Shown here: positions 5,732-52,108 of the stretch, piece by piece | Layout of the letters: each line of letters opens with the position of its first letter | How positions within the stretch are numbered: the first letter of the stretch is position 1 | Source of the DNA: Haloferax massiliensis | GTDB taxonomy: Archaea; Halobacteriota; Halobacteria; Halobacteriales; Haloferacaceae | DNA length: 64,000 nt | NCBI RefSeq assembly: GCF_001368915.1 | Contig: NZ_CSTE01000002.1 | Span: 410,248-474,247 of the forward strand | Reading direction: 5' to 3' | The notes under the pieces: generated by a model | Seen by the model: only the letters and a program-made list of their open reading frames with translations | Database searches by the model: none | Told to the model about the DNA's origin: nothing | Program-made: the position numbers and the translations under genes

Positions 5732-6895
5732 TCAGAGGACGCCCACCTCACGCAAGAGTTCCACGGTTCCTTCGAGGTCCGAAAGCTGCGTCAGGTCGAG
5801 GCCCTCGGGCGGGCTGAGTTCGTCGATGCTCGGCAGTTCGCCGATGGGGTCGACGCCGGAGACCAGCGGGTACTCGTAGGTGGTCCGCGCGAAGTAGTCC
5901 TGCGCTTCGGCCGAAAGCAGGTGGCGAACGAAGTTGCTCGCCAGTTCGGCGTCGTCGGTGCTGTCGAGGACGAGCGCGCCCGCGACGTTGAAAATCGACC
6001 CGGCGTCGCCCGCGGTGAAGGCGGTCGAAAGCGGCGCGTTCGGTCGTCCGGCGAGGATGCGCTGGATGTAGTAGTGGTTGGCGAAGCCCGCGCCGATTTC
6101 GCCGTCGGCGACGGCCTGCGAGACGAGGAACTCGTCGTTGTACTCCGTGACCCCGAGGTCCTGCATCCCCCGCAGCCACTCTCTCGTGGCGTCTTCGCCT
6201 TCGAGGACGCGCATCGCCGTGATGAACGCCTGGAACGACGAGTACGTCGGGGCCCAGCCGATGTTGTCGCGGAACGCCTCCGTGTCGGGGAAGGCCATGA
6301 TGTCGTCGGGGATGCCCGACTCGTCGAACTGGTCGGTGTTGAACGGGACGGTCCGGGCGCGACCGGAGGTCCCGGTCCACTGCCCGTCAGGGTCGTGGAA
6401 CTCGTCGCGGACGAGGTCGAGCACCTCGCTCGGGAGCTCCTGCGTGCGACCGGCGTCCTTCAGCGCGCCGAGCGAACCCGCGTTGACCGAGAAGAACACG
6501 TCCGCGGGGCTGTTCTGCCCCTCGGTCTGAATCTGGTTGACCAGTTCGGCCGCCGAGTTGTACCGCGGGCGGATGGTGAACTCGTCGTAGTACTCCTCGA
6601 AAAAGGAGATGAGTTCGCCGACGAGCGCCTGCCCGCGCCCTGAGTAGAGCGTGAGTTCGCCCGAGAGGTCCGGCATCTCCGTGACGGACACGCCGCCGGT
6701 GATTTCGCGGTCGCCGAACGGGGAGCGCCCGGACCCGATCTGTCCGACCGACTCGTTGGTACCGGCTTCGGTCGTCGTCTCCGTCTCCTCGTCGCCGCCG
6801 GTACACCCGGCGAGCGCGCCGACCCCGAGGGCCGCCGTCGTCGCGATGAACCGGCGGCGACTGTGGCCGCGAAGCTCTCGGTCGCGTTCGTGCAT
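5732..6895 (-). CDS. iron ABC transporter substrate-binding lipoprotein
   Basis: This is a 387-residue extracellular binding protein of the FbpA class. It begins with a Tat signal (SRRRFIA, residues 12-18) and a lipobox LAGC with the anchor Cys31, followed by an acidic Thr-rich linker typical of haloarchaeal lipoproteins. Tandem tyrosines 275-276 (ANHYYIQR) match the ferric-ion ligand pair of FbpA proteins. The start codon is about 27 nt downstream of a TATA box and directly follows a DtxR-like palindrome, so the mRNA is probably leaderless and iron-repressed. It is the first gene of the operon. Confidence 0.9.
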   Translation of the reverse strand: MHERDRELRGHSRRRFIATTAALGVGALAGCTGGDEETETTTEAGTNESVGQIGSGRSPFGDREITGGVSVTEMPDLSGELTLYSGRGQALVGELISFFEEYYDEFTIRPRYNSAAELVNQIQTEGQNSPADVFFSVNAGSLGALKDAGRTQELPSEVLDLVRDEFHDPDGQWTGTSGRARTVPFNTDQFDESGIPDDIMAFPDTEAFRDNIGWAPTYSSFQAFITAMRVLEGEDATREWLRGMQDLGVTEYNDEFLVSQAVADGEIGAGFANHYYIQRILAGRPNAPLSTAFTAGDAGSIFNVAGALVLDSTDDAELASNFVRHLLSAEAQDYFARTTYEYPLVSGVDPIGELPSIDELSPPEGLDLTQLSDLEGTVELLREVGVL

Positions 6896-30634: not shown

Positions 30635-32365
30635 TTACCCGAACTCACGCAGGAAGTCGCCCAATGCCCGTACGAACGTTCTCGCCGTGATCACTGGCGG
30701 TGACCGGATCGACTCGTCGAGCGCGACCTTGATTAGATAGTCCGTCAGCCGCCACAGATTGTAGATCAGCGTCGACAGCGCGAAGTTGCACAGGCGAAGT
30801 CGGTAGTCCGTCGACGACGTCTTCGGCATAAAATCCTTGATCGACTTGTACTGGTTCTCGATATCCCAGCGCCGACTGTACCCGTTCACAACACTCGAGA
30901 TCTCTTCAGGCTCAACGCGGCCCTGGTTCGTTACGAACACCGCGTACTTGCCGTCGGCTTCGTCGTTCGTACTCGGGGCATAGAGGAACTCCGCCTCGTG
31001 ATGGATCTCGCCGTCGATTCCGAACGGAACATCGTGCTTGACAGCTTCGTCCGCCGTCGGATGCTCCTGAATATCCTGAATCGCCGCTAAATCATCCTCA
31101 TACGTCGGCACTGGAGAGAGATACGTGAGTCCACGGTCGTGGACCTCTGCGTACACGCGATTGACGTAGAATCCACGGTCGAACATCACTGTATCCAGAT
31201 CAACGAACTGCTCCGCCCGGTCGAGCAATCGGCTCACCAGGTCTGCCTTTGAGTACGACGGCGAGTCGTCACGCTCCCACGCAGAGTCCTCTTTGACCGG
31301 CTCAATGCCGAGGGCGATCGGCGCGTGGTCACCGACTAGGGTGATGGTGGCGTACTTGTAGCCGTGTTTGTACTCGCCGTCTTTCTTGTACCCGCTCACC
31401 ATCTTCGGGTAGTCTGGCTTCGCGATGCCTGCTTCCTTGTCCTCCCACGGCCAGACGTGGAATTGCTCGTGCGTGATGTCGATGGCTGCAATCTTCTTAC
31501 GGGAGTCGAAGGGGTCCTCGCCACGAATCGAGTTGATGATGTTTTCCGTCGCGGCGTTAAACGCCGTCATAATCGCGTCCCGAATCTGGTCGATCTCGGG
31601 CATCGAGTCCTCGTCCTCGAAATCTTCGAACGTGAGCTGCCCGTCGGACGCTTCGGGCGTCGCAATCTTCTTGATTGCGCGTAGGAACGTCGAGTCGTCA
31701 CAGATGAGTTCGTCGTCGGTGAGCCAGCCGTACTCGGCTTCTGAGTGGGCACTGCCGTTGTTCGCGCAGATACTCGCAAACATATCCAGCATTACCTCGT
31801 CGGAGTACGTCTTGTGGGCTGCTCGGTGCGTGTCGAACTCAGGGATGACGTGTTTGCGAGCGAGCGTCAGCGTCTTCTGGGCCTTCTCCTTCTTGTACTC
31901 ATTCGCGCTTTGTGACTCTTCCTCGGTTTCGGCTGGGACTGACGGAACAAGACCTTCCGTGAGGACGTCGTTGTCGAGAGCAACTTGCCGGACGCCAGCA
32001 ACCGTGCGATTGAGGACTTCCTGGGTATCCTCGCTGAACTGCGCGTGCGTGTACGAGAGTTGTTGCTGGGTGGGCGTATTCGAGAGATCGGTAATGTCGA
32101 GGTGGAAGCTCTTGACTAAGCTCGGCTCCCGACCGAGCCGTTGCGCTAATTCGTTCTGTGAGATGCCTCGAATCCCCTTGAACAAGAGCGTACGGAACAT
32201 TTCGTCGGTTCCAAAGGTCACGCGGTTCTGATCGCGGGCATCCTCAAGGTTGTCGACGGGAATTGATAACTGGCAAATGACGTCCCAGAGGTGGTCTTCA
32301 CGCTCACAGAGTGTCTCCGCGTGGACAATGATTGAGTCAGCGACAGCCGACGGGTCAGTCGGCAT
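30635..32365 (-). CDS. IS4-family-like DDE transposase
   Basis: This 576-residue transposase has candidate catalytic aspartates in AAIDITHEQF and TVMFDRGFYV. The segment YSRRWDIENQYKSIK fits the IS4 signature Y-x2-R-x3-E-x6-K exactly. The N-terminal 200 residues include DNA-binding-like helices (SQNELAQRLGREPSLVKS). I start at MPTDPSAVAD (32365); 17 further residues upstream are possible. It is longer than usual haloarchaeal IS4 enzymes (about 400 aa). I could not identify terminal inverted repeats, so whether a complete IS is present is unclear. Confidence 0.85.
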   Translation of the reverse strand: MPTDPSAVADSIIVHAETLCEREDHLWDVICQLSIPVDNLEDARDQNRVTFGTDEMFRTLLFKGIRGISQNELAQRLGREPSLVKSFHLDITDLSNTPTQQQLSYTHAQFSEDTQEVLNRTVAGVRQVALDNDVLTEGLVPSVPAETEEESQSANEYKKEKAQKTLTLARKHVIPEFDTHRAAHKTYSDEVMLDMFASICANNGSAHSEAEYGWLTDDELICDDSTFLRAIKKIATPEASDGQLTFEDFEDEDSMPEIDQIRDAIMTAFNAATENIINSIRGEDPFDSRKKIAAIDITHEQFHVWPWEDKEAGIAKPDYPKMVSGYKKDGEYKHGYKYATITLVGDHAPIALGIEPVKEDSAWERDDSPSYSKADLVSRLLDRAEQFVDLDTVMFDRGFYVNRVYAEVHDRGLTYLSPVPTYEDDLAAIQDIQEHPTADEAVKHDVPFGIDGEIHHEAEFLYAPSTNDEADGKYAVFVTNQGRVEPEEISSVVNGYSRRWDIENQYKSIKDFMPKTSSTDYRLRLCNFALSTLIYNLWRLTDYLIKVALDESIRSPPVITARTFVRALGDFLREFG

Positions 32366-32661
32366 TGAGCCACCTCCAGGGCGAACCACTCCGATTCTGA
32401 GTTGTGGTCGATCCAATGCTGGAGTAATTCTGTATAGACGTATCTGCTGAGTAGGAGCAAAGAACAGTATAGAATAGAGTAAAAATGTAGTTGAGCATCG
32501 TCGTCGATTATCTGCCCTAAGCTTGTATCGAGAGACATATCAAGGGATATGCGCGCTGTACTTAGAGAATCGGTTGTAGCCACAATTCGATATAGGTCAA
32601 AAATCAGTTTGAATCAAATTCCGGTTGGGTTTATAGTGATGTGGGGAGAACAGGGTGTACG

Positions 32662-33210
32662 ATGGGCTTGGACGAACTCGAGGCGTTTCTTCGGAAGAAG
32701 GGTGCGGCGGAACTCGTTACAGAGATCGGGACGGGAACAGCGACGTTCAACGCGCTCGTCGACGCGGTTGCGGTAAGTGGATCGACGGTCTCCTCGCGAC
32801 TCTCAGAAGGCGTTGATCACGACGTGTTCACGGTGAGTCATAGGCCGACCGAGCACGGGACAGAGAAGCGGTATGCACTCACGATTCTTGGGCGTCGGAT
32901 CTATGATTGGGCAGCGCAGACGGAATTCGAGCGGAAAGTGCGAGAGCTCCGGCGACGTCGCCACGAGCGGGATACAGCATTCGAGCGGATGGTTGGGAAG
33001 ATCAATCGTGACATGGAACTCCGCAAGATGGTCGCCGATTCGGAACCCGTGGACGACCAGGATGTTGTCCTTCCCGAAGGGGCGTCTTTAGTGCCGAAGA
33101 TGGCATCAGAAGAGGAACTTCGTGAAGCCAAATACGAACGGATGGAAGCGAATCTCAAGCCACTAGAAGAACTCGAGGACGCCGATGGGACGGGAGAGGA
33201 CAGCGACTGA
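32662..33210 (+). CDS. winged-helix protein with charged C-terminus
   Basis: This 182-residue protein begins with a MarR/ArsR-like winged helix (FLRKKGAAELVTEIG, ATFNALVDAVAVSGSTVSSRLS, TEKRYALTILGRRIYDW), then a highly charged, probably coiled-coil C-terminal half (REAKYERMEANLKPLEELEDAD). A TATA element TTTATAG about 30 nt before the ATG at 32662 fits a leaderless start. It is divergent from the transposase; the 296 bp between them hold only promoter-like AT-rich sequence. Target unknown. Confidence 0.75.
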   Translation: MGLDELEAFLRKKGAAELVTEIGTGTATFNALVDAVAVSGSTVSSRLSEGVDHDVFTVSHRPTEHGTEKRYALTILGRRIYDWAAQTEFERKVRELRRRRHERDTAFERMVGKINRDMELRKMVADSEPVDDQDVVLPEGASLVPKMASEEELREAKYERMEANLKPLEELEDADGTGEDSD

Positions 33211-33597
33211 GACAAACGATTTATACCGGCTCGGCTATCTCTTGTGAGATCCTCAGCCACAAATGGAACTGTCTCAGCTGACGGTTCAGGGCAGGAAGCA
33301 CACCAAACAGACCTTCCACCGTCTTATGGCTCATGAGCCACGAGATGGTCTATATTTTAAGTAGTTTATTATGATATCAACTTCTTCTTATAACTCGGAA
33401 CCTAGTCAACCGAAATAGAGGGAATATTTTCATGTGGCTTTATTGAAATCCTCAATAGCCAACAATTCTTGGCGCTCGACCGCTCAGCACAGGTAAAAAC
33501 GCATCTGTTGAAGATGAGAGAGGATAACCCCGAAATCAACCACTCACTGATGTAAAATACGACAATGGCCGTTACCTCGCCGCCGGCAAGTCTGGGT
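33211..33597. other. AT-rich gap with possible gene remnants
   Basis: No intact gene is seen. A 14-bp perfect palindrome TGGCTCATGAGCCA lies at 33327-33340. Open stretches ending at 33555 (…LKMREDNPEINHSLM) and reading on toward 33641 (KYDNGRYLAAGKSGFKS…) look more protein-like than random and may be remnants of a disrupted gene. The rest is AT-rich spacer. Confidence 0.35.
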
Positions 33598-34302
33598 TCA
33601 AATCCGAATCCTTTGCAACCAGTCAGTCACTTCAGCCCTGACCTCCTCTCTCCGATCCTCCTTGATTGCGAGGTAAACACCATCTCTCTCCAATCCGCCC
33701 CTTGTGGAGAAACCCTCCCGTACATCGGCATTGGGACAGCGGTCTTCTATCGTTTGAAAGCTACTCCCGACCCCATACCCCCCATTCGTATTGAAGGGGA
33801 CCACATTTTTCCCGCCTAAATCGTGTTCTCTCAGAAAGGTCTTCATCGGCGGCGGCAACTGCATATCCCACGTCGGGGCACCGAAAAACACGGTGTCGTA
33901 CGCCCCGATATCCTCAACTAGGCATTGGAGAGGCGGAGTATAGCCAGCTTCGTTTTCTTCGTCTACCTGGGATACGAGCGTGTCGTAATCTACGGGGTAC
34001 GGTTCTGCCGGCAAAACTTCGAACAGCTCTCCACCCACTTCTTCCCGAATCATTTCAGCGACAGCCTGGGTGTTTTCCGTACGAGAGAAAAACACGATCA
34101 GTACACGATTCTCGTCGGTACTTTGGGGAGTCTCGTCCTCACTTTGGGGAGGTGTATTCTGCTCTTCCGTCTCGGAGCTGCTCCCGTCTAAGCATCCCGC
34201 GAGTAAGCCACTTCCTGCCACTGCTGCTGCCCCTAGCAAATTACGCCGACTCGTTCTATCGTTCTCTGACTCGTCCGAGGTGGGTGGGGTATTCTCTCTC
34301 AT
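33598..34302 (-). CDS. Tat-exported flavodoxin-like lipoprotein
   Basis: This 234-residue protein starts with a Tat signal (TSRRNLLGAAAVAG, 17-30) and lipobox LAGC (anchor Cys37), then an acidic Ser/Thr linker and a flavodoxin fold. The FMN phosphate loop is FFSRTENTQAVAE (71-83), and FGAPTWDMQLPPPMKTFL is the typical flavodoxin segment. It would sit outside the cell and carry electrons from FMN. The aldo/keto reductase gene ends 34 bp upstream, so the two probably form an operon. Most flavodoxins are cytosolic; exported relatives occur in bacteria beside similar oxidoreductases. Confidence 0.87.
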   Translation of the reverse strand: MRENTPPTSDESENDRTSRRNLLGAAAVAGSGLLAGCLDGSSSETEEQNTPPQSEDETPQSTDENRVLIVFFSRTENTQAVAEMIREEVGGELFEVLPAEPYPVDYDTLVSQVDEENEAGYTPPLQCLVEDIGAYDTVFFGAPTWDMQLPPPMKTFLREHDLGGKNVVPFNTNGGYGVGSSFQTIEDRCPNADVREGFSTRGGLERDGVYLAIKEDRREEVRAEVTDWLQRIRI

Positions 34303-34336
34303 TTTTGGGTGACTGAGGCCTCATTTCACCGAGGCT

Positions 34337-35350
34337 TTAGTTGGCCTGCGACCCGGGGACGGGAGCCCCAGCAATCGGGAGGGGTTCGTACGGCTCTTCG
34401 AGGTATTCGAGATCCGAATCCGACAGGTCGATTTCCAGCGCTTCGACAGCTTGTTCGAGATGTTCGACACTCGTGGTGCCGACAATCGGTGCATCGACAA
34501 CATCCTGATGGAGCAGCCACGCCAACGAGAGTTGCGCCATCGTCACGCCTTTCTCCGCAGCGAGTTCCTCGACGCGCTCGTTGACAGCCGGGCCACCGCC
34601 CATCCGGTACTCCTCGTGTGTCTCGGTGAGCTCTTCACCGCGAGTCGTTGCAGTCATCTCCTCGTGGGGGCGGGTGAGATATCCTTGGGCCAGTGGACTC
34701 CACGGGATAACGCCGATGTCTTCTTTCTCGCAGAAGGGGAACATCTCTCGTTCGCCCTCGCGGTAGACGAGGTTGTAGTGGTCCTGCATCGTCACGAACT
34801 GTTCGAGATCCAGGTGCTCGCTGGTGTACACCGCCTCGGCGAACTGGTGAGTCCACATCGACGACGCGCCGATGTATCGCACCTTCCCGCGTCGAACTGC
34901 GTCATCAAGGGCACGCAGCGTTTGCTCGATGGGTGTCTCGTAGTCCCACCGGTGGATCTGGTAGAGGTCAATGGTATCCATCCCCAGTCGGTCTAGCGAA
35001 TTCTCCAGTTCCTGTTCGACAGTCTTCCGGGAGAGTCCCGACGCGTTCGGGTGCGGTTCGTCTGCATCGGAGAAGAGGTTCGTGGGGAAGTAGCATTTCG
35101 TGGCGACGACCTGTTCGTCGCGGTCGTACTCTCCGAGAACGTCCCCGATGATTTCCTCGGACTCCCCGTTCGAGTACGCATTCGCCGTGTCGAAGAAGTT
35201 GATGCCGAGGTCAATCGCGCGTTCGATGATCTCGCGCGAGCCCTCCTCGTCAAGTGTCCAGTCGTGAAGGTCGCTCACGCCGAAACTCATCCCGCCAAGA
35301 CAGAGGCGACTGACCTTCATTCCGGTCGAACCGAGGGTCGTGTATTCCAT
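34337..35350 (-). CDS. aldo/keto reductase (voltage-channel beta / YghZ-type)
   Basis: This 337-residue NAD(P)H-dependent aldo/keto reductase has the full catalytic tetrad Asp54, Tyr59, Lys85 and His133 (FFDTANAY, VVATK, YQIHRWD). The start is a double ATG (35353/35350; MMEYTTLGSTG). Further in-frame residues upstream overlap the promoter and are unlikely to be coding. Substrate is unknown; reactive aldehydes or quinones are likely. It precedes the exported flavodoxin in a probable operon. Confidence 0.9.
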   Translation of the reverse strand: MEYTTLGSTGMKVSRLCLGGMSFGVSDLHDWTLDEEGSREIIERAIDLGINFFDTANAYSNGESEEIIGDVLGEYDRDEQVVATKCYFPTNLFSDADEPHPNASGLSRKTVEQELENSLDRLGMDTIDLYQIHRWDYETPIEQTLRALDDAVRRGKVRYIGASSMWTHQFAEAVYTSEHLDLEQFVTMQDHYNLVYREGEREMFPFCEKEDIGVIPWSPLAQGYLTRPHEEMTATTRGEELTETHEEYRMGGGPAVNERVEELAAEKGVTMAQLSLAWLLHQDVVDAPIVGTTSVEHLEQAVEALEIDLSDSDLEYLEEPYEPLPIAGAPVPGSQAN

Positions 35351-35407
35351 CATCGTGCTCAGTTTGAACAAAGGAGGTGAATCGCTTGGGTGTGATGCTA
35401 ACGAAAT

Positions 35408-35420
35408 ACCGCGTTTAAGT
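35408..35420 (-). promoter_or_regulatory. shared promoter box upstream of first aldo/keto reductase
   Basis: The minus-strand sequence ACTTAAACGCGGT lies about 55-70 nt before the start codon and is nearly identical (12 of 13) to one before the second aldo/keto reductase. The ACTTAAAC part may serve as TATA box; the GCGGT part may be a regulator site. Confidence 0.55.
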
Positions 35421-35489
35421 ACGCGCGTGACCGATGCGTACTGCAACCACGTTGGTCCTGACTAAGGGGATCGCTCCTGTAATCGAGAC

Positions 35490-36341
35490 TTAGGTCTCGC
35501 GCTCAGCTTCTCCCAGCCGTTTCACCATTTCAGGGTCTCGGTGGTCGAAGAACTGACTTTCGCCTTCGTCCAGTTCCGAGATCGTCTCCATTTCCTCTGA
35601 GGTGAGCTCGAAGTCGAACACGTCGAAATTCTCGGCGATCCGCTCCGTGTGGACTGACTTCGGAATGGCGACGATGTCGCGCTGAATGAACCATCGCAGC
35701 GTCACCTGTGCAGCAGATTTCCCGTGGCGGTCCCCAATCGTGGTCAGCACGTCGTGCTCGAAGATGTTGTTCTGGCCTTCGGCGAACGGCCCCCACGACT
35801 CGTGTTGGATGTCGTGTTCGTCGAGGAATGCTGCATCCTCGGTTCGCTGGTAGAAGGGATGGGTCTCAATCTGATTCACTGCCGGGACGACATCGTTGTG
35901 GACCATGAGGTCCATCACGCGGTCGGGGTGGAAGTTGCTGACCCCAATGGCCCTGATCTTGCCGTCCTCGTAGAGGTCTTCCATGGCCTGCCACGAGCAG
36001 TGGACATCTCCGTAGGGCTGATGTATCAGAAACAGGTCGAGGTAGTCGAGGCCTAGTCGGTCCAGCGACCGCTCGAACGCGTCCAACGTAGCCTCGTAGC
36101 CGGTGTCCTGCACCCAGAGTTTTGACGTAATGAACACCTCGTCTCGCGGCACGTCGCTCTTCTCGATTGCCCGCCCGACCGCCTCCTCGTTCTCATACGA
36201 CGCCGCAGTATCGATGAGTCGATACCCTGTTTCGAGGGCTTCCGAAACACTTCGTTCGCACTCGTCGAGGTCCTCGATCTGATACGTGCCGAATCCGAGA
36301 ATCGGCATCTCCACACCGTTGTTGAGTTCGACTGTCTTCAT
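35490..36341 (-). CDS. aldo/keto reductase (2,5-diketogluconate reductase type)
   Basis: This 283-residue enzyme is of the AKR5-like group (DkgA/prostaglandin F synthase type). The tetrad is Asp44, Tyr49, Lys74 and His107 ([19 protein letters not shown]), and GVSNFHPD and [13 protein letters not shown] are family segments. C-terminal [19 protein letters not shown] contacts NADPH in relatives. It probably detoxifies reactive carbonyls. It has its own promoter box in common with the neighbouring reductase. Confidence 0.92.
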
Positions 36342-36403
36342 AGTAGGTCTCTGTCTACTAGATACGAGGGACTACGGGCAGATAGTGACGGCGCTAATTG
36401 GAA

Positions 36404-36416
36404 ACCGTGTTTAAGT
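36404..36416 (-). promoter_or_regulatory. shared promoter box upstream of second aldo/keto reductase
   Basis: Minus-strand ACTTAAACACGGT, 63-75 nt before the start codon, matches the box before the other reductase at 12 of 13 positions and at a similar distance. The rest of the 256-bp gap up to the cupin gene shows no gene. Confidence 0.55.
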
Positions 36417-36597
36417 GCTCGAGACTTTATTGGAACCCACAGAATATGATACGTACGGCACGTGAGATACAGAGAGTGTTGTCAGCACGTGATTTCGGTT
36501 CGTTTCGCATATTTAGTTGCGAAACAGCCGTTTAGTAGAGAAGTGCTGATGTACCCTGTTATCCTCGGAATTCACCGCGAACTGGTCTAACGAATCG

Positions 36598-36996
36598 TCA
36601 ATCTGGCTGGTACTGCTCGTCAGTAACCCGTTCCATCCACTCAACGACCTCGCCCTCTTGTTGCTCTTGGATGGCGATGTGCCTCATAGCCTTCTCTGGC
36701 GTTGCACCGTGCCAGTGTTTCTCGCCCGGCGGGAACCAGACCACGTCACCCGAACGGACTTGCTCTATCGATCCGCCTTCGCTCTGCACGAGGCCGCAAC
36801 CGGATGTCACGATTAGGGTTTGGCCCAGCGGATGAGTGTGCCACGCAGTGCGAGCACCAGGTTCAAACGTGACGTTCGCCCCAACTGCGCGGGCTTGGTC
36901 GTGCGAGTCGAACAATGGATCGATTCGAACGTCACCTGTAAAGTACTCCTCAGGGCCTTCAGTAGAAGGTAGCGAACAGCCCCTCTGAATATCCAT
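36598..36996 (-). CDS. cupin-domain protein
   Basis: This 132-residue single-domain cupin has the metal motif pieces His53, His55 and Gln59 (AWHTHPLGQ) and a second motif [11 protein letters not shown] with His94 and His96. It resembles the small cupins (including bacterial mandelonitrile-lyase-like proteins) found beside flavodoxin, SDR and AKR genes. The SDR gene ends 17 bp upstream, implying a two-gene operon. Reaction unknown. Confidence 0.87.
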
Positions 36997-37013
36997 TAAT
37001 TCGTCACCTCTCG

Positions 37014-37781
37014 TTAAGGTTGTACCTGATCAGTCGGACGGACGAGTACTTCGTTGATGTCCACATGGGCAGGTTGTGAGACGACAAATGTGATCGTCCG
37101 AGCGATGTCATCCGGTTGAAGTGGGCGCATCGACTCACCGAGTTTCTCGATCTGCTCTTTGATCTCCTCATCGGCAATGGATTCCGGGAGTTCTGTGGCG
37201 ACCGATCCTGGCTCGATTGTCGCCACCCGAATTCCCTCCGCCGCAACATCCAGCCGGAGTGAATCGCCGAACATCTTCACACCAGCCTTCGTCGCGTTGT
37301 AGTGCGACCCGTTCTCCATCAGGAACCGTCCGACGACCGAGGAGAGATTGACAATGTGGCCACTCTCTTGCTCCAGCATCGTCGGAATGACGGCGTGGGT
37401 GAGTTTAACGAGGCCACCGAGATTGACGTCGATTGTCGTCTGAAGGGTCTCTCGATCCACGTCCGCGATGTGACTGAGGGGCATCAATCCTGCGTTGTTC
37501 ACGAGAATGTCGATGCGACCGTACTCGTCGAGTGTCGCGTCAACGAGTGCGTCGATGTCCTCGTCGTCCGTAATATCGGTCGGGACGACGAGTGCGTCCC
37601 CATCTTCCGCTTCAATCTGGCTTTGGAGCTCCTGTAGTTCGTTCTCGCGCCGTGCAGCAACAACAACTCTTGCACCACGGGATGCGAGGGCTTTCGCGGT
37701 TGCTTCGCCAATCCCGGACGAGGCACCAGTGACAATCGCAATCTGTCCACCCAGTTCGGAACCAAAGTCGGCTGACATCAC
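37014..37781 (-). CDS. short-chain dehydrogenase/reductase (SDR)
   Basis: This classical 255-residue SDR has the NAD(P) loop TGASSGIG (18-25), NNAG (95-98) and catalytic Ser148, Tyr161 and Lys165 (YNATK). The substrate is unknown. A TATA-like ACATAAATA precedes it, and it leads the SDR-cupin operon. Bacterial relatives with this neighbourhood are often in carbonyl or quinone stress loci. Confidence 0.92.
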
Positions 37782-37833
37782 TTGAACAGAGGCCCGCGAC
37801 GGGGGAGACGTTGATGCTATATGGAAAGGGTAT

Positions 37834-38493
37834 TTATGTAGTGGGGACGTCGAGTGAGGAGGTCAGGAGTTGGCGCTCGCCGCGACGGAGGAGCGCGGAG
37901 AGAGAGGGTTGTGAGATGCCGAGTTCCTCGGCGAGCTCCTCCGCTGTGACTTGCCGTGTGCTCTCATAGTATCCACGGGAGACGGCGAGCGATAGTGCTT
38001 CGCGTTGACGTTCGGTCAATCCATCCTGTAGGAAGTCGTCGGATTCGGAGGAGTTCGGTGTAATAGAGATGAGATCGAGTGAAATTCCATTCTCTTCCAA
38101 CGTCGTACGGAATTCGGTGAACGTCTCGTGGTCTTTGAACACCTTCGTCTCGCGCCAGCCGTCCGGCGTTATGATCGTTGATTTCATCTTGGCGACTCCA
38201 GAGCGACCATCGTCGAGCGAAGCAAACGGCGTATCCGCAAGTTCAACATGGAGTTCGTAGACGGCTTCACCGTCTGTTTCTCCAAGTGGGGTAATTTCTT
38301 TGACCTCTTCGAGAGTTTCGAGATCTTCCGCGGAGACCTCATTTGCAGTGTCTATTTCGACAACAAAGGTTTGGATATTAGGTTGGAGGCAGAGCGCGTG
38401 CGTACAGGTGATCTCGTCCGGCTGGAGTTCCGTTGTGATACTAACGAGTGGAAGGGACGACGACCGGAGGAAAAATTCCGCTGTGACGGTCAT
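37834..38493 (-). CDS. Bat-type HTH_10 transcriptional regulator A
   Basis: This 219-residue haloarchaeal regulator has a C-terminal bacterioopsin-activator HTH (LTERQREALSLAVSRGYYESTRQ, AEELAEELGISQPSLSALLRRGERQLL). The N-terminal 140 residues form a sensor-like domain with ITTELQPDEITCTHALCLQ. It is a close paralog of the next gene, presumably by tandem duplication. It lies just upstream of the SDR-cupin operon on the same strand and is a candidate regulator of the island. Confidence 0.88.
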   Translation of the reverse strand: MTVTAEFFLRSSSLPLVSITTELQPDEITCTHALCLQPNIQTFVVEIDTANEVSAEDLETLEEVKEITPLGETDGEAVYELHVELADTPFASLDDGRSGVAKMKSTIITPDGWRETKVFKDHETFTEFRTTLEENGISLDLISITPNSSESDDFLQDGLTERQREALSLAVSRGYYESTRQVTAEELAEELGISQPSLSALLRRGERQLLTSSLDVPTT

Positions 38494-38678
38494 AACGCAG
38501 GAGTACGAGCTACGATGAGTTAACAGTCCGGATTATCGGAGTGCACTACTATCGGTACCGAAGTAGACCTGTTGGTGCTGAACAAGTCCTTATCATTGAG
38601 TAGTTTGTTCCCCTCACAGTAGGTGCCGAACCAGTTAACGGATTCGCGCTCTGTATGCAGCAGGGCCGCGAGAGCATG

Positions 38679-39362
38679 TTACCGATTGAGGGTTTCAACA
38701 GATCCGTGCTCCTGTGTTTGGAGCGCCGAAGAGAGAAGCTGACGCTCACCTCGCCTGAGGAGTCTCGATAACGAGGGTTGTGAGATGCCGAGCTCCTCAG
38801 CAAGTTCCTCGGTCGATGTCTGGCGCGGGCTCTCATAGTAGCCACGGGAGAGCGCGAGTGTCAACGCCTCGTGTTGCCGTTCAGTCAACCCAAACGGGAG
38901 GGCGTCGTCAGATGCAGCGGAAGTGGAGGTCATCGAGATGAGATCGAGCGAGAGGCCGTAGTTCTCACAACGGGTCCGGGACTCCATGAACGCATCGCGG
39001 TCCTTGTACACTTTCTTCTCGTACCACCCGTCCGGTGTGACGACGGTCGGTTCGAGCTTTGCTGCTACAGAACTGCCCCCGTTGAATACCTGCGAGATCG
39101 AGTCGGCAAGATCAATGGTAAGGTTGTGGACTGTTTGCTCGCCCGCGTAGCCAATCGTTGTCGCCTCTGAAACTTCGTTTAGGGCTTCCAAGTCGGCTTC
39201 TGAGACGTTGACCTCTGAATCTATTTTGACGATGAACATCCGGGCGTCCTGTTCGAAACAGAGTCCGTGAACGCACTCAATTTGGTCTGGCGGGAGTCTC
39301 TCAGTGATACTGACCAATGGGAGAGAAGGTGAACTAAGACAAAACTCAGTCGTAATTGTCAT
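38679..39362 (-). CDS. Bat-type HTH_10 transcriptional regulator B
   Basis: This 227-residue paralog of the preceding gene keeps nearly the same HTH (AEELGISQPSLS followed by LLRRGERQLLSSAL) while the N-terminal sensor region has diverged (ITERLPPDQIECVHGLCFE). Both begin MT-(I/V)-T and share SLPLVSIT. The 186 bp between the two contain promoter-like sequence, so they are probably separately transcribed. Confidence 0.88.
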   Translation of the reverse strand: MTITTEFCLSSPSLPLVSITERLPPDQIECVHGLCFEQDARMFIVKIDSEVNVSEADLEALNEVSEATTIGYAGEQTVHNLTIDLADSISQVFNGGSSVAAKLEPTVVTPDGWYEKKVYKDRDAFMESRTRCENYGLSLDLISMTSTSAASDDALPFGLTERQHEALTLALSRGYYESPRQTSTEELAEELGISQPSLSRLLRRGERQLLSSALQTQEHGSVETLNR

Positions 39363-39898
39363 ACATGGACTTATGCTTCACCGGTAGTTAACGTTCGGGG
39401 CTCCCGAGTTTACAGGGACTCCTCCAGCAGGAGATGGTCTGGGCAATACCCCACCTTCCTCTAGAACAAATCAGTCGATCCGACGCTCGGCGCGTTGAGT
39501 ACAGCATCAGCGACCCCGCAATGACTGAACCGTCTCACGGTTCATGAACGCTGAGGCGGTTCAGAAAGAACACTGCATTGTATCCCTGATTACTCTTGAG
39601 TCCGGTAAACCGAGGTTCACTCGCTGTCTCGGCGTCGTTCGGCGATGTTACTCTTGAGTATGGAGTGAGCACCCCCTCTCGCTACGCACTGGAGTAGCTC
39701 GAAATATGATCTAAGTGTTGCCCAGTTGGTGGTTTGTAGAAATCCAAACGCAGAATCTGTGTTTCCACCGCAAATCGGATTTCATATCGCGCCATTTGAT
39801 TTATTAGTGCGAGAGGCCGGTTCTGGTACTCCCTCGGCCGTTCTCACGCTCCGACACGCGGGCCTAGGGTCATTATCGTGTCACTCGTATCACACCGT
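39363..39898. other. right-edge spacer of the island with repeats and hairpins
   Basis: No convincing gene. A direct repeat TTACTCTTGAGT occurs at 39591-39602 and 39649-39660. Hairpins include CTCCT-CCAGC-AGGAG (39420-39434) and TGAACCG-TCTCA-CGGTTCA (39527-39545). These could be decayed ends of a mobile element. Composition returns to chromosomal near 39850. Confidence 0.5.
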
Positions 39899-41341
39899 AT
39901 GGACCATCTCGAAACCCCGGCGGTACACCGGTTGCTCACCTCCCCCGCCGGCCGACTGCTGACCTCGCGCCCGTTCGAGGCGTTCAAAACCCGTTCGCTC
40001 CCCCGCGAGTTCGGCGCCGTCCGCGCTCGCGCCGCGGCCGACGTGGCGCTCTCGGAGGGGCCCGAAGCGTACCTCCGCGAGGTCGGCGCGCCGCCCGCGC
40101 CGCACCTCCACGACCGAATCGAACGCGCTCTCGCGCAGTACGCCCGCCTCCGCGGCGCGTACGACGAGACGATGGAGCGTTGGGAGCGCGTCTTCTGGGG
40201 CGACGAGGAATCGACGCCCGACGAGCGCGTCGCCGTCGAGCGCGAGCGCCGCGAGGTGTCGGAACGGCGGGCCAAACCGACCGACATCTTCGGCTTCCTC
40301 CCGAAGGAACACCTCGTGCCGCCGGTGAAGTTCGAGACGCCGTCGCCCGAGGACGCGCGGACCCGCTGGCACCACGAGCTCGCCGAACCCGAGCGACTGT
40401 ACGGCTTCGCCGAGTCCAGCGCGGCCGAGGAGTTCCCCCGCGTCGAGCGCTCCGCGACCGTCCGCGGGCCGGGAACCGTCGAGTACCTGCTTCGCTTCCG
40501 GTCGCCCTCGCCGCACCTCAGCGACCGGGCGACCGCGCGGGTGTACGAGCCCGCCGACGCCACCGACGCCGACCTACCGACGCTCGTCTTTCACTCCGGG
40601 TGGGGGACGTTCGACGACCAGCTCACCTACTGGCCCGAAGAGGAGTACGTCGGCCGCGCGCTCGCCCCCGAGGGCTACCGGGTCGTCCTCCCCGACGCGC
40701 CGTGGCACGGCCGCCGCGAGCTACTCGGCCGGTACAGCGGCGAGCCCTACATCGCCAGCGCGCCCGTCGGCCTGTTCACGCTCTACTCGGCGGCCGCGCT
40801 GGAGACCGCCGTCCTCACCGACTGGGCGCGGACCGAGGGCGCGCCGGTCGTCGGCGTCGGCGGCGTCAGCCTCGGTGGAACCGTCGCGCTCCACGTCGGC
40901 GGCCGGTGCGGCGACTGGCCCGAGTCGATGCACCCCGACCTGCTGTTCCCCGCGGGGATGCCCGGCGCAATCGACCAGACGCTCCTCGCCGGCGGCCTCA
41001 CGAAACTGCTCGACATCGACGACGCGCTCGACGCGGCCGGCTGGACCGGCGCGGCGCTCCACGAGTTCGCGCCGCTTTTGAACCCGCCGAAAGACCCGTG
41101 TCTCGCGCCCGAACGCGTCTTCCCGCTCGTCGGGACCCGCGACGAGATGGCTCCCGCCTCGACGGCCCGCGCGCTCCTCGACGAGTGGGGCGTCCCGAGG
41201 CCGAACCGCCGCGAGTGGGACTGCGGACATTTCGGCGTGCTCGCGAACCTCATCAGAGACGAGTCGTTCCGAACGACGGTCCGACGAGAGTTGGACGCGG
41301 CGGCGCGGAACCGCCGGAACAGAGAATCAGTTACCGCCTGA
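39899..41341 (+). CDS. alpha/beta hydrolase of the ABHD18 (DUF2048) type
   Basis: This 480-residue protein has the nucleophile elbow GVSLGG with Ser324, a candidate acid in LVGTRDE and a C-terminal WDCGHFG histidine. A long N-terminal helical part (1-180) precedes the fold, as in the eukaryotic ABHD18 family. The ATG at 39899 (MDHLETPAVH) is preceded by an ATTATCG stretch about 30 nt upstream. Family assignment is from overall architecture and is moderately sure; substrate unknown. It converges with thrS. Confidence 0.72.
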   Translation: MDHLETPAVHRLLTSPAGRLLTSRPFEAFKTRSLPREFGAVRARAAADVALSEGPEAYLREVGAPPAPHLHDRIERALAQYARLRGAYDETMERWERVFWGDEESTPDERVAVERERREVSERRAKPTDIFGFLPKEHLVPPVKFETPSPEDARTRWHHELAEPERLYGFAESSAAEEFPRVERSATVRGPGTVEYLLRFRSPSPHLSDRATARVYEPADATDADLPTLVFHSGWGTFDDQLTYWPEEEYVGRALAPEGYRVVLPDAPWHGRRELLGRYSGEPYIASAPVGLFTLYSAAALETAVLTDWARTEGAPVVGVGGVSLGGTVALHVGGRCGDWPESMHPDLLFPAGMPGAIDQTLLAGGLTKLLDIDDALDAAGWTGAALHEFAPLLNPPKDPCLAPERVFPLVGTRDEMAPASTARALLDEWGVPRPNRREWDCGHFGVLANLIRDESFRTTVRRELDAAARNRRNRESVTA

Positions 41342-51354: not shown

Positions 51355-52005
51355 CTACGCCTCAGACGGGTGTTCGACCGAGCGAATCAGTTCGAGAACG
51401 TTCTCCTCCTCGCCGTCGAGTTGCTGTGGGTACAGCCCCATCGCGACGATGAAGTCCTCGTTGTGCCGAACCTTCGTCACGTGGACGTACACGTCGACCT
51501 CGTCCCCGCCGAACCGCGCGGTGGCGCTGTACTTCGTGACGTTGGTCGTCTGTCCGAGCATCTGGACGTTCCGCGAACTGACGGGGTCGACGTCGCTGAG
51601 GCCCTGATACCGGTTGTCGACGAGGCGGATGAGGTCGTCGTTCGAGTAGTCGCCGATGGGGCTCCGCGGCTGGCCCGCGACCTCGACGGCGGGCGTCGAG
51701 ATGACGCTGAACGAGCCGAGTCTGGCCTCGCCGAAGAAGCCGAGGTCAAGCGTCTTCTCGTAGGTCGTGATGTGGTTGCTGGCGGCGATTTTGCGCTCCT
51801 GTCCGCCGAACGAGAGCGTCCGGTTCACCGCGAACGTCTCGGTCCCGTTCGTCTCGTAGCCGGCGTTCGCGGCGACCGTCGCGTCGGCCGCGGCGGGTTC
51901 AGATTCGAACGTCAGCGTCTCCTCGCCGGTCAGAAAGCCGATACAGCCGCTCGTGAACACGAGCGCGGCGAGCGCGAGCACCGCGACTACGCGTCTGGAA
52001 CTCAT
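51355..52005 (-). CDS. DUF6517-type lipoprotein
   Basis: This 216-residue exported protein has a signal with lipobox-like TSGC (MSSRRVVAVLALAALVFTSG then Cys) and the body typical of haloarchaeal DUF6517 proteins: NRTLSFGGQERKIAASNHI, SPIGDYSNDDLIRLVDNRY, VDVYVHVTKVRHNEDFIVAMG. The start at 52005 replaces a 7-residue upstream extension. Function unknown; membrane-anchored outside the cell. Confidence 0.85.
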   Translation of the reverse strand: MSSRRVVAVLALAALVFTSGCIGFLTGEETLTFESEPAAADATVAANAGYETNGTETFAVNRTLSFGGQERKIAASNHITTYEKTLDLGFFGEARLGSFSVISTPAVEVAGQPRSPIGDYSNDDLIRLVDNRYQGLSDVDPVSSRNVQMLGQTTNVTKYSATARFGGDEVDVYVHVTKVRHNEDFIVAMGLYPQQLDGEEENVLELIRSVEHPSEA

Positions 52006-52108
52006 TGCTCCGCCATTTCCCCTCACCGGGCATAAGTTCGGTGGCCGGGCGGTTCGGTCTTCGGCGCGGTTCGCGATGCGGCCCGCGGAGCGGTCTGCGG
52101 GTTTCGCC

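Follow-up and report, generated by a model that had tools for sequence, protein, structure and literature searches.

We found that a stretch of 64,000 nucleotides from Haloferax massiliensis (the window) encodes a flavodoxin for which the sequence supports well a prediction of location, namely that the protein is lipid-anchored and routed through the Tat pathway. On balance, we think it probable that this is an FMN flavodoxin, exported by Tat and anchored at Cys37, which would serve as the carrier or reductase of a surface defence cassette. The elements of this explanation that sequence comparison establishes are the signal, the lipobox, the domain, the gene order, the horizontal spread and the selection on the domain and, roughly, on the signal. 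The gene is the following:

33598..34302, minus strand: flavodoxin gene, encoding a predicted Flavodoxin_4 Tat lipoprotein of 234 aa (open reading frame and Pfam match)

Positions 33598-34302 hold exactly one open reading frame, from ATG to stop on the minus strand, and three parts can be told apart in the 234-aa product: the signal comes first, an acidic linker extends from it to about residue 65, and residues 67-206 match the Pfam family Flavodoxin_4 (PF12682) with 70.6 bits, where the curated cut-off is 24. It is the sole Flavodoxin_4 match in a profile search of the genome. By score and predicted fold the protein is a member of this family; it did not reach the equivalog cut-off of classical short-chain flavodoxins (TIGR01753, 28 bits against 123) or the NCBIfam cut-offs of PRK07116 (96.2 against 198) and PRK06934 (93.1 against 172). 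In the AlphaFold model (20 rows; mean pLDDT 78), 124 of 234 residues have a pLDDT of at least 90 and most core blocks at least 87, residues 36-62 and most of the N-terminus lie below 50, and residues 201-210 are at 61. The best PDB match of the model in VIA-align was 4ICI (Z 21.5, rmsd 1.9, 152 aligned residues); the comparison also gave 4J8P (Z 20.7, rmsd 1.8, 150 aligned) and 3KLB, which is titled as an FMN complex (Z 20.2, rmsd 2.3, 153 aligned), and Foldseek returned the same three entries with E-values from 1.1e-14 to 1.6e-12. VIA-align further returned GPCR entries at Z 14, which are presumably flavodoxin fusion constructs and were not used for any inference.

The flavodoxin gene closes a cassette with the order HTH_10 - AKR2 - (cupin) - AKR1 - flavodoxin, which is made up of an HTH_10 regulator, two aldo/keto reductases (AKRs), the flavodoxin and, in 7 of 12 copies, a cupin. 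In the window, the surroundings of the gene are as follows:

38679..39362, minus strand: HTH_10 regulator b, the conserved regulator of the cassette (Pfam and locus comparison)
37834..38493, minus strand: HTH_10 regulator a (Natrinema copy 77% identical)
37014..37781, minus strand: short-chain dehydrogenase (SDR), also found beside the Natrinema cassette (85% identical)
36598..36996, minus strand: cupin (NF049940 above cut-off)
36421..38705, minus strand: segment holding the cupin, SDR and HTH_10 a genes, placed between HTH_10 b and AKR2 (blastn boundaries)
35490..36341, minus strand: AKR2, aldo/keto reductase, no export signal seen (nearest NCBIfam model DkgA)
34337..35350, minus strand: AKR1, aldo/keto reductase, no export signal seen (the listed reading frame begins at 35446; relatives start MEYTT)
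30635..32416, minus strand: transposase adjoining the cassette (Pfam DDE_Tnp_1; nearest NCBIfam model ISH3, below its cut-off)
31000..40000, no strand: low-GC stretch (51-58% GC in 1-kb steps against 65% in the window)

AKR1 is 91-97% identical to 10 haloarchaeal copies and ends 34 bases before the start of the flavodoxin, and the AKRs of 10 haloarchaeal loci are together 88-97% identical to those of the window. AKR2 remains below the DkgA cut-off (265.7 bits against 425), and the cupin exceeds the cut-off of the NCBIfam (R)-mandelonitrile lyase model NF049940 (199.7 bits against 140). Six other haloarchaeal cassettes carry a different cupin of 126 aa (41-43% identical), and in five none is called or annotated. 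A blastn comparison with 11 other haloarchaeal loci showed the segment with cupin, SDR and HTH_10 a at that place in none of them; at the Natrinema locus, an SDR and an HTH_10 gene lie directly upstream of the cassette. Only the flavodoxin of the window cassette bears a signal, and the AKRs, cupin and SDR begin like cytosolic proteins.

HTH_10, AKR2, AKR1 and flavodoxin occur together in all 12 haloarchaeal copies found, if we count four in which one gene is split or shortened by mutation or assembly error (the flavodoxin in L018, the regulator in L021 and L025, AKR2 in L023). In Halovenus rubra R28 (L018:3279-3960) the flavodoxin is present as two overlapping reading frames, owing to a frameshift or an assembly error; the HTH_10 regulator is split at L021:4828-5503 and short at its start at L025:4955-5509, and AKR2 is split between frames at L023:1536-2386. 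The surroundings of the cassette vary, and several loci share a downstream copper-type ATPase or Mrr-like gene. Besides the window, the copies belong to G302 Natrinema, G024 Halorussus, G015 Halorubrum, G161, G079 Halorhabdus, G159 Halomarina oriensis, G180 Halovenus, YIM A00010, Halarchaeum, Halostagnicola and Halomarina BND7. The gene is rare in the class: 9 of 391 genomes matched at 1e-8, eight of them (H. massiliensis included) through the flavodoxin gene and the ninth (G372) through a weak match to a different protein (31% identity). A wider family search of the phylum matched 130 of 392 genomes, of which four belong to the order of the window, all four with the flavodoxin gene. Three haloarchaeal cassette copies lie on named plasmids. 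In a tree of 39 rows, which carries a long-branch warning for its other parts, all 11 intact copies from haloarchaea group together (support 97/92), and their sister group consists of seven bacterial sequences from Fodinibius, Hymenobacter and five more genomes of the same phylum as Fodinibius (98/96; 99/97 for the joint branch). The bacterial sister clade rules out that this flavodoxin is an invention of haloarchaea only. Sequence comparison identifies the gene as cargo of a low-GC cassette that is patchy in haloarchaea and was spread by horizontal transfer.

What this cassette may do is suggested by its neighbours, and our best guess for the flavodoxin is a role in surface defence against electrophiles or oxidants. 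The neighbourhoods of bacterial flavodoxins also contain AKRs, cupins, CMD and hydrolases, and those of two Enterobacterales plasmids add a histidine kinase/response regulator. That carbonyl reductases recur beside the flavodoxin suggests a cassette directed at reactive carbonyls, quinones or oxidants, of which the flavodoxin may form the outer part, a stress reading drawn from gene neighbours. A single hint comes from the literature: in a passage of PMC7464077, hypochlorite raised a CMD gene, among others, in biofilms of Burkholderia. Because the AKRs and the SDR look cytosolic, a pathway common to them and the surface flavodoxin is not obvious, and neither the cassette neighbours nor a DUF4405 search of the genome yielded an electron donor or acceptor gene. 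We consider it possible, if doubtful, that the exported protein acts mainly as an enzyme, a WrbA-like reductase of quinones or electrophiles, instead of as an electron carrier. WrbA and other FMN reductases match the flavodoxin fold too, the cassette neighbours are reductases, and an extra C-terminal segment (GG-x-ERDG) is common to the haloarchaeal clade and its Bacteroidota-type sisters and absent in distant aligned relatives. However, the closest structures are Bacteroides Flavodoxin_4 entries titled 'putative flavoprotein', not WrbA, and outside the cell one would not expect NAD(P)H.

We infer from sequence and model that the protein takes up FMN. The regions concerned are:

34069..34086, minus strand: FMN phosphate loop, S73-R-T-E-N-T78, with Glu76 where Gly is usual (alignment of 24 sequences)
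33832..33882, minus strand: presumed second flavin loop, G141-x-P143-x-W145 to L157 (alignment to 4ICI/3KLB; both P143 and W145 unchanged across 24 sequences)
33760..33798, minus strand: presumed third flavin loop, P169-F-N-T172-N-G-G175-Y-G177-V-G179-S-S181 (alignment of 24 sequences)

The second and third stretches (G141 to L157 and P169 to S181) we take to be flavin loops, as in flavodoxin structures. S73, N77, T78, P143, W145, T172 and G175 are invariant in all 24 aligned proteins, and T75, G177, G179 and S181 are conserved in at least 90% of them. The earlier note had described an apparently intact FMN loop; this stands for S73, T75, N77 and T78, but not for position 76, where all 12 haloarchaeal copies have Glu in place of the usual Gly. 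To place this residue in the wider family, we used a survey of 91 loci (duplicates and haloarchaeal copies included), which consists of the best-scoring matches and 18 hand-chosen stretches and is not a random sample. Among its 83 distinct proteins, 46 had a readable loop, with Gly at position 76 in 32, Glu in 6, Asn in 4, Ser in 2, Gln in 1 and Asp in 1; all six Glu loops are haloarchaeal, and Glu76 is confined to the haloarchaeal clade within this set. As a Glu in the phosphate loop could weaken FMN binding, the protein might be exported without FMN, Glu76 having made it a non-redox surface protein, and its presence in 12 of 12 haloarchaeal copies, set beside Gly in 32 of the 46 loops, is consistent with this. 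We nevertheless regard an FMN-free protein as distinctly unlikely: S73, T75, N77, T78, W145, T172, G175 and further residues of the flavin loops are retained, the flavodoxin core is under strong purifying selection, and exported relatives have Asn or Ser at position 76. In its fold, the AlphaFold model agrees with the FMN-bound relative 3KLB.

The location of the protein was predicted from its N-terminus, with signals assigned by rule and by comparison between copies:

34192..34248, minus strand: signal core of the flavodoxin (Tat motif, hydrophobic stretch and lipobox), residues 19-37, RRNLLGAAAVAGSGLLAGC (pattern in 12 of 12 copies)

The signal, printed as SRRNLLGAAAVAGSGLLAGC with Cys37 as the lipobox Cys, contains the Tat motif S18-R19-R20-N-L-L and the lipobox L34-A35-G36-C37. 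The 16 residues between R20 and C37 fall within the published range, as passages of PMC2945643 give 12-21 residues from the twin arginine to the lipobox of haloarchaeal Tat lipoproteins, LAGC as the commonest lipobox and a Tat route for 78-87% of putative haloarchaeal lipoproteins. Shuffling the first 60 residues 100,000 times gave the pattern 8 times, and it occurs in 3 of the 191 open reading frames of at least 100 aa in the window, the flavodoxin included. The other two, at 5732-6895 and 51355-52026, both lie on the minus strand. Motif and lipobox are retained in all 12 haloarchaeal copies found, so the Tat signal that had been proposed ahead of the FMN loop is borne out by rule match, chance controls and conservation among orthologs, and the proposed lipobox (LAGC, Cys37) by its presence in 12 of 12 copies; the signal prediction suggested in the earlier note, run here by rule and comparison, recovers the pattern of a Tat lipoprotein. 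TatC gave three matches above cut-off in the genome; for two of these the open frame given is 727 codons long.

We also compared selection on the parts of the protein (mean dN over mean dS; 55 pairs of 11 intact copies). The core had a ratio of 0.11, whereas residues 19-37 of the signal gave 0.20 (19 codons only), the n-region 0.40 (residues 1-18; 48 of the 55 pairs) and the linker 0.53, all rough because the stretches are short; AKR2 gave 0.09 (10 copies, 45 pairs). These values are most simply explained by purifying selection on the signal, with a much freer linker. We rejected a cytosolic flavodoxin with a chance signal in view of the shuffles, the conservation and the selection.

That the protein is not exported, with a vestigial signal or with translation beginning within or after it, is very unlikely in our view. 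The RefSeq start of the Halorhabdus tiamatea copy (plasmid pHTIA, L145:9082-9684) is codon 28, 81 bases in and past the twin arginines, and some other copies have alternative start codons where the domain begins or close by (for example GTG60 in L012 and L023; TTG61 in L017, L023 and L115), with a further TTG38 in L017. However, translation from codon 28 would keep half of a hydrophobic stretch and the lipobox, all 12 copies retain both the ATG and the complete signal, with a low dN/dS in the signal, and the sister clade looks exported as well. In the window copy, the possible inner starts TTG22 and GTG28 both lie within the signal, and no in-frame ATG, GTG or TTG occurs between residues 29 and 69. 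As the annotated start in Halorhabdus tiamatea hides the twin arginines, secretome surveys based on annotation could miss this flavodoxin.

We propose that the flavodoxin would fold and take up FMN in the cytosol, cross the membrane folded by way of Tat, lose its signal and receive a lipid anchor at Cys37. An acidic tether of about 30 residues would then hold it, with its FMN, at the outer face of the membrane beneath the S-layer. It may serve there as a one-electron carrier or as a small FMN reductase that acts on quinone-like or oxidised electrophiles. The HTH_10 regulator may induce it along with the cytosolic AKRs and SDR, which in turn may remove aldehydes and ketones inside the cell.

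To set the haloarchaeal protein against exported flavodoxins elsewhere, we returned to the survey, in which the N-termini were inspected by eye for signals and insertions, one locus with a doubtful N-terminus (L045) was left out, and the labels Clostridia, methanogen and Bacteroidota were inferred from the phylum searched. Among 25 exported non-haloarchaeal Flavodoxin_4 proteins, the insertion is absent from 16, short and without the motif in 3, and flavinylation-like in 5 (the strict pattern matched 2 of the 5), and one protein (L132) is ambiguous; by eye, the flavinylation site is absent from 19 of the 25. With 16 lacking the insertion and 3 the motif, exported flavodoxins without a covalent flavin look ordinary. 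The phylum of Fodinibius had matches in 7 of 198 genomes, all seven in the class without insertion, and the sister clade has Sec-type signals in 7 of 7 rows (by eye). Because the closest bacterial relatives bear such signals, Tat is no necessity for the family, and the rule that Tat is needed for FMN to be loaded inside is weakened by the frequency of insertion-free Sec-exported relatives. Tat-type flavodoxin signals were seen elsewhere on a Pantoea plasmid and in a Tat lipoprotein with a short insertion (L133, from the phylum of Ruminococcaceae). The Tat lipoprotein form looks like a haloarchaeal habit applied to an ordinary exported flavodoxin. An extracellular flavodoxin is accordingly less unusual than the earlier note had implied, since exported Flavodoxin_4 proteins are frequent in the survey and were already described in passages of PMC11334425.

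Several relatives have distinctive arrangements. At L113:6884-8286, from a non-haloarchaeal genome of the same phylum that is probably a methanogen, an insertion-free Sec-lipoprotein Flavodoxin_4 is directly followed by a DUF4405 membrane protein; at L109:6313-7705, a Flavodoxin_2/FMN_red Tat lipoprotein adjoins a Sec-lipoprotein Flavodoxin_4, and the membrane protein at the place of DUF4405 matched no Pfam family. A 382-aa fusion at L139:596-1744 joins a membrane-helix region to Flavodoxin_4 with an insertion of the flavinylation type (DAVSGAS). The DUF4405 pair of L113 and this fusion support electron flow from membrane to flavodoxin in these relatives. One exported protein (L036) has about 175 residues of what we read as dockerin-like repeats before its Flavodoxin_4 domain. 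In the phage collection, ten records (H41-H50), nine from human faecal samples, encode Flavodoxin_4-like proteins; these could be cargo of the phages or come from bacterial DNA that was binned wrongly.

Exported flavodoxins are known in bacteria, where they are in print as covalently flavinylated proteins, and by its sequence the window protein is without their insertion and motif. Passages of PMC11334425 describe exported Flavodoxin_4 proteins with signs of flavinylation, contrasted with cytosolic members, locate the covalent FMN within an inserted segment that separates strand 1 from helix 1, and reason that the covalent bond prevents flavin loss outside the cell; according to them, such proteins occur with apbE and often DUF4405, and the trait they have in common with the window protein is export. 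Alignment and pattern search found no strand 1-helix 1 insertion and no match to the ApbE-like motif in the window flavodoxin. That its flavin is attached covalently outside the cell by ApbE, as in exported Firmicutes flavodoxins, is hardly credible. The genome does have one ApbE gene, which speaks for such attachment, but this gene lies on another contig (G000:C5:296209-296913; L121:6210-6914) and not beside the flavodoxin, and we rejected the attachment for the lack of both insertion and motif. DUF4405 was ruled out as electron donor, as a profile search found none in the whole genome. The haloarchaeal branch hence has no covalent-flavin site, like 19 of the 25 sampled exported members, but Tat in place of a Sec signal. 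This raises the question of how exported flavodoxins without a covalent flavin acquire and retain FMN, and haloarchaea offer a genetically tractable setting in which to compare Tat and Sec versions of one protein. A more specific proposal, which we consider rather improbable, is that haloarchaea keep an extracellular flavodoxin with non-covalent FMN, exported loaded via Tat, which would replace both the Sec signal of its bacterial sisters and the covalent flavin anchor known from published exported flavodoxins, as the surface arm of a mobile cassette for defence against electrophiles and oxidants.

In the open-licence PMC literature we recognised neither the cassette nor a haloarchaeal surface flavodoxin, and print elsewhere may differ; the 'extracellular flavodoxin-like domain' in a passage of PMC5898192 belongs to a GldG-like protein and is an unrelated matter. 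The Bacteroides structures 4ICI, 4J8P and 3KLB have family and fold in common with the window flavodoxin, and 3KLB was solved with FMN, but no haloarchaeal Tat lipoprotein signal was seen in them and their phosphate loop has Gly where Glu76 stands here. Their aligned residues begin at 32 in 4ICI and 23 in 4J8P, which would fit trimmed N-terminal extensions, and at 2 in 3KLB, as in a cytosolic protein and unlike the window flavodoxin. The sister protein of Fodinibius roseus (L027) is 54% identical to the window flavodoxin, or 58% over 182 aligned residues. Sisters of this type have the same kinds of neighbours (AKRs, cupins, SDR), but a Sec-type signal where haloarchaea have Tat, and Gly, Asn or Ser in the loop. 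Many of their neighbours seem exported, whereas those in the window seem cytosolic: beside the Fodinibius flavodoxin lie exported-looking hydrolases, cupins, DUF4440 and a putative CMD, together with a Tat-signalled AKR and cytosolic AKRs, and a CMD is annotated near the Hymenobacter flavodoxin gene. The flavodoxin of the Pantoea plasmid (L119) resembles that of the window in its Tat-type signal (by eye), its Flavodoxin_4 domain and its AKR and cupin neighbours; the signal of the E. coli counterpart (L140) we infer from shared gene order and length. The Enterobacterales plasmid flavodoxin differs from that of the window in having no lipobox (38-39% identical) and in extra CMD, hydrolase and kinase/regulator genes. 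In L119 and in L140:4266-14622 (E. coli plasmid NZ_CP021881.1), flavodoxin, cupin, CMD, AKRs and hydrolases form a cluster with a two-component system (histidine kinase/response regulator) annotated as heavy-metal responsive, and the E. coli cluster lies near aldoxime dehydratase and nitrilase-type genes. Finally, the haloarchaeal Tat lipoproteins of PMC2945643, where the word 'flavodoxin' has a count of 0, bear the same type of signal as the window protein, and a passage of PMC6267482 describes Tat-lipoprotein halocyanins as electron carriers in Haloferax volcanii, a possible type of partner for a surface flavodoxin.
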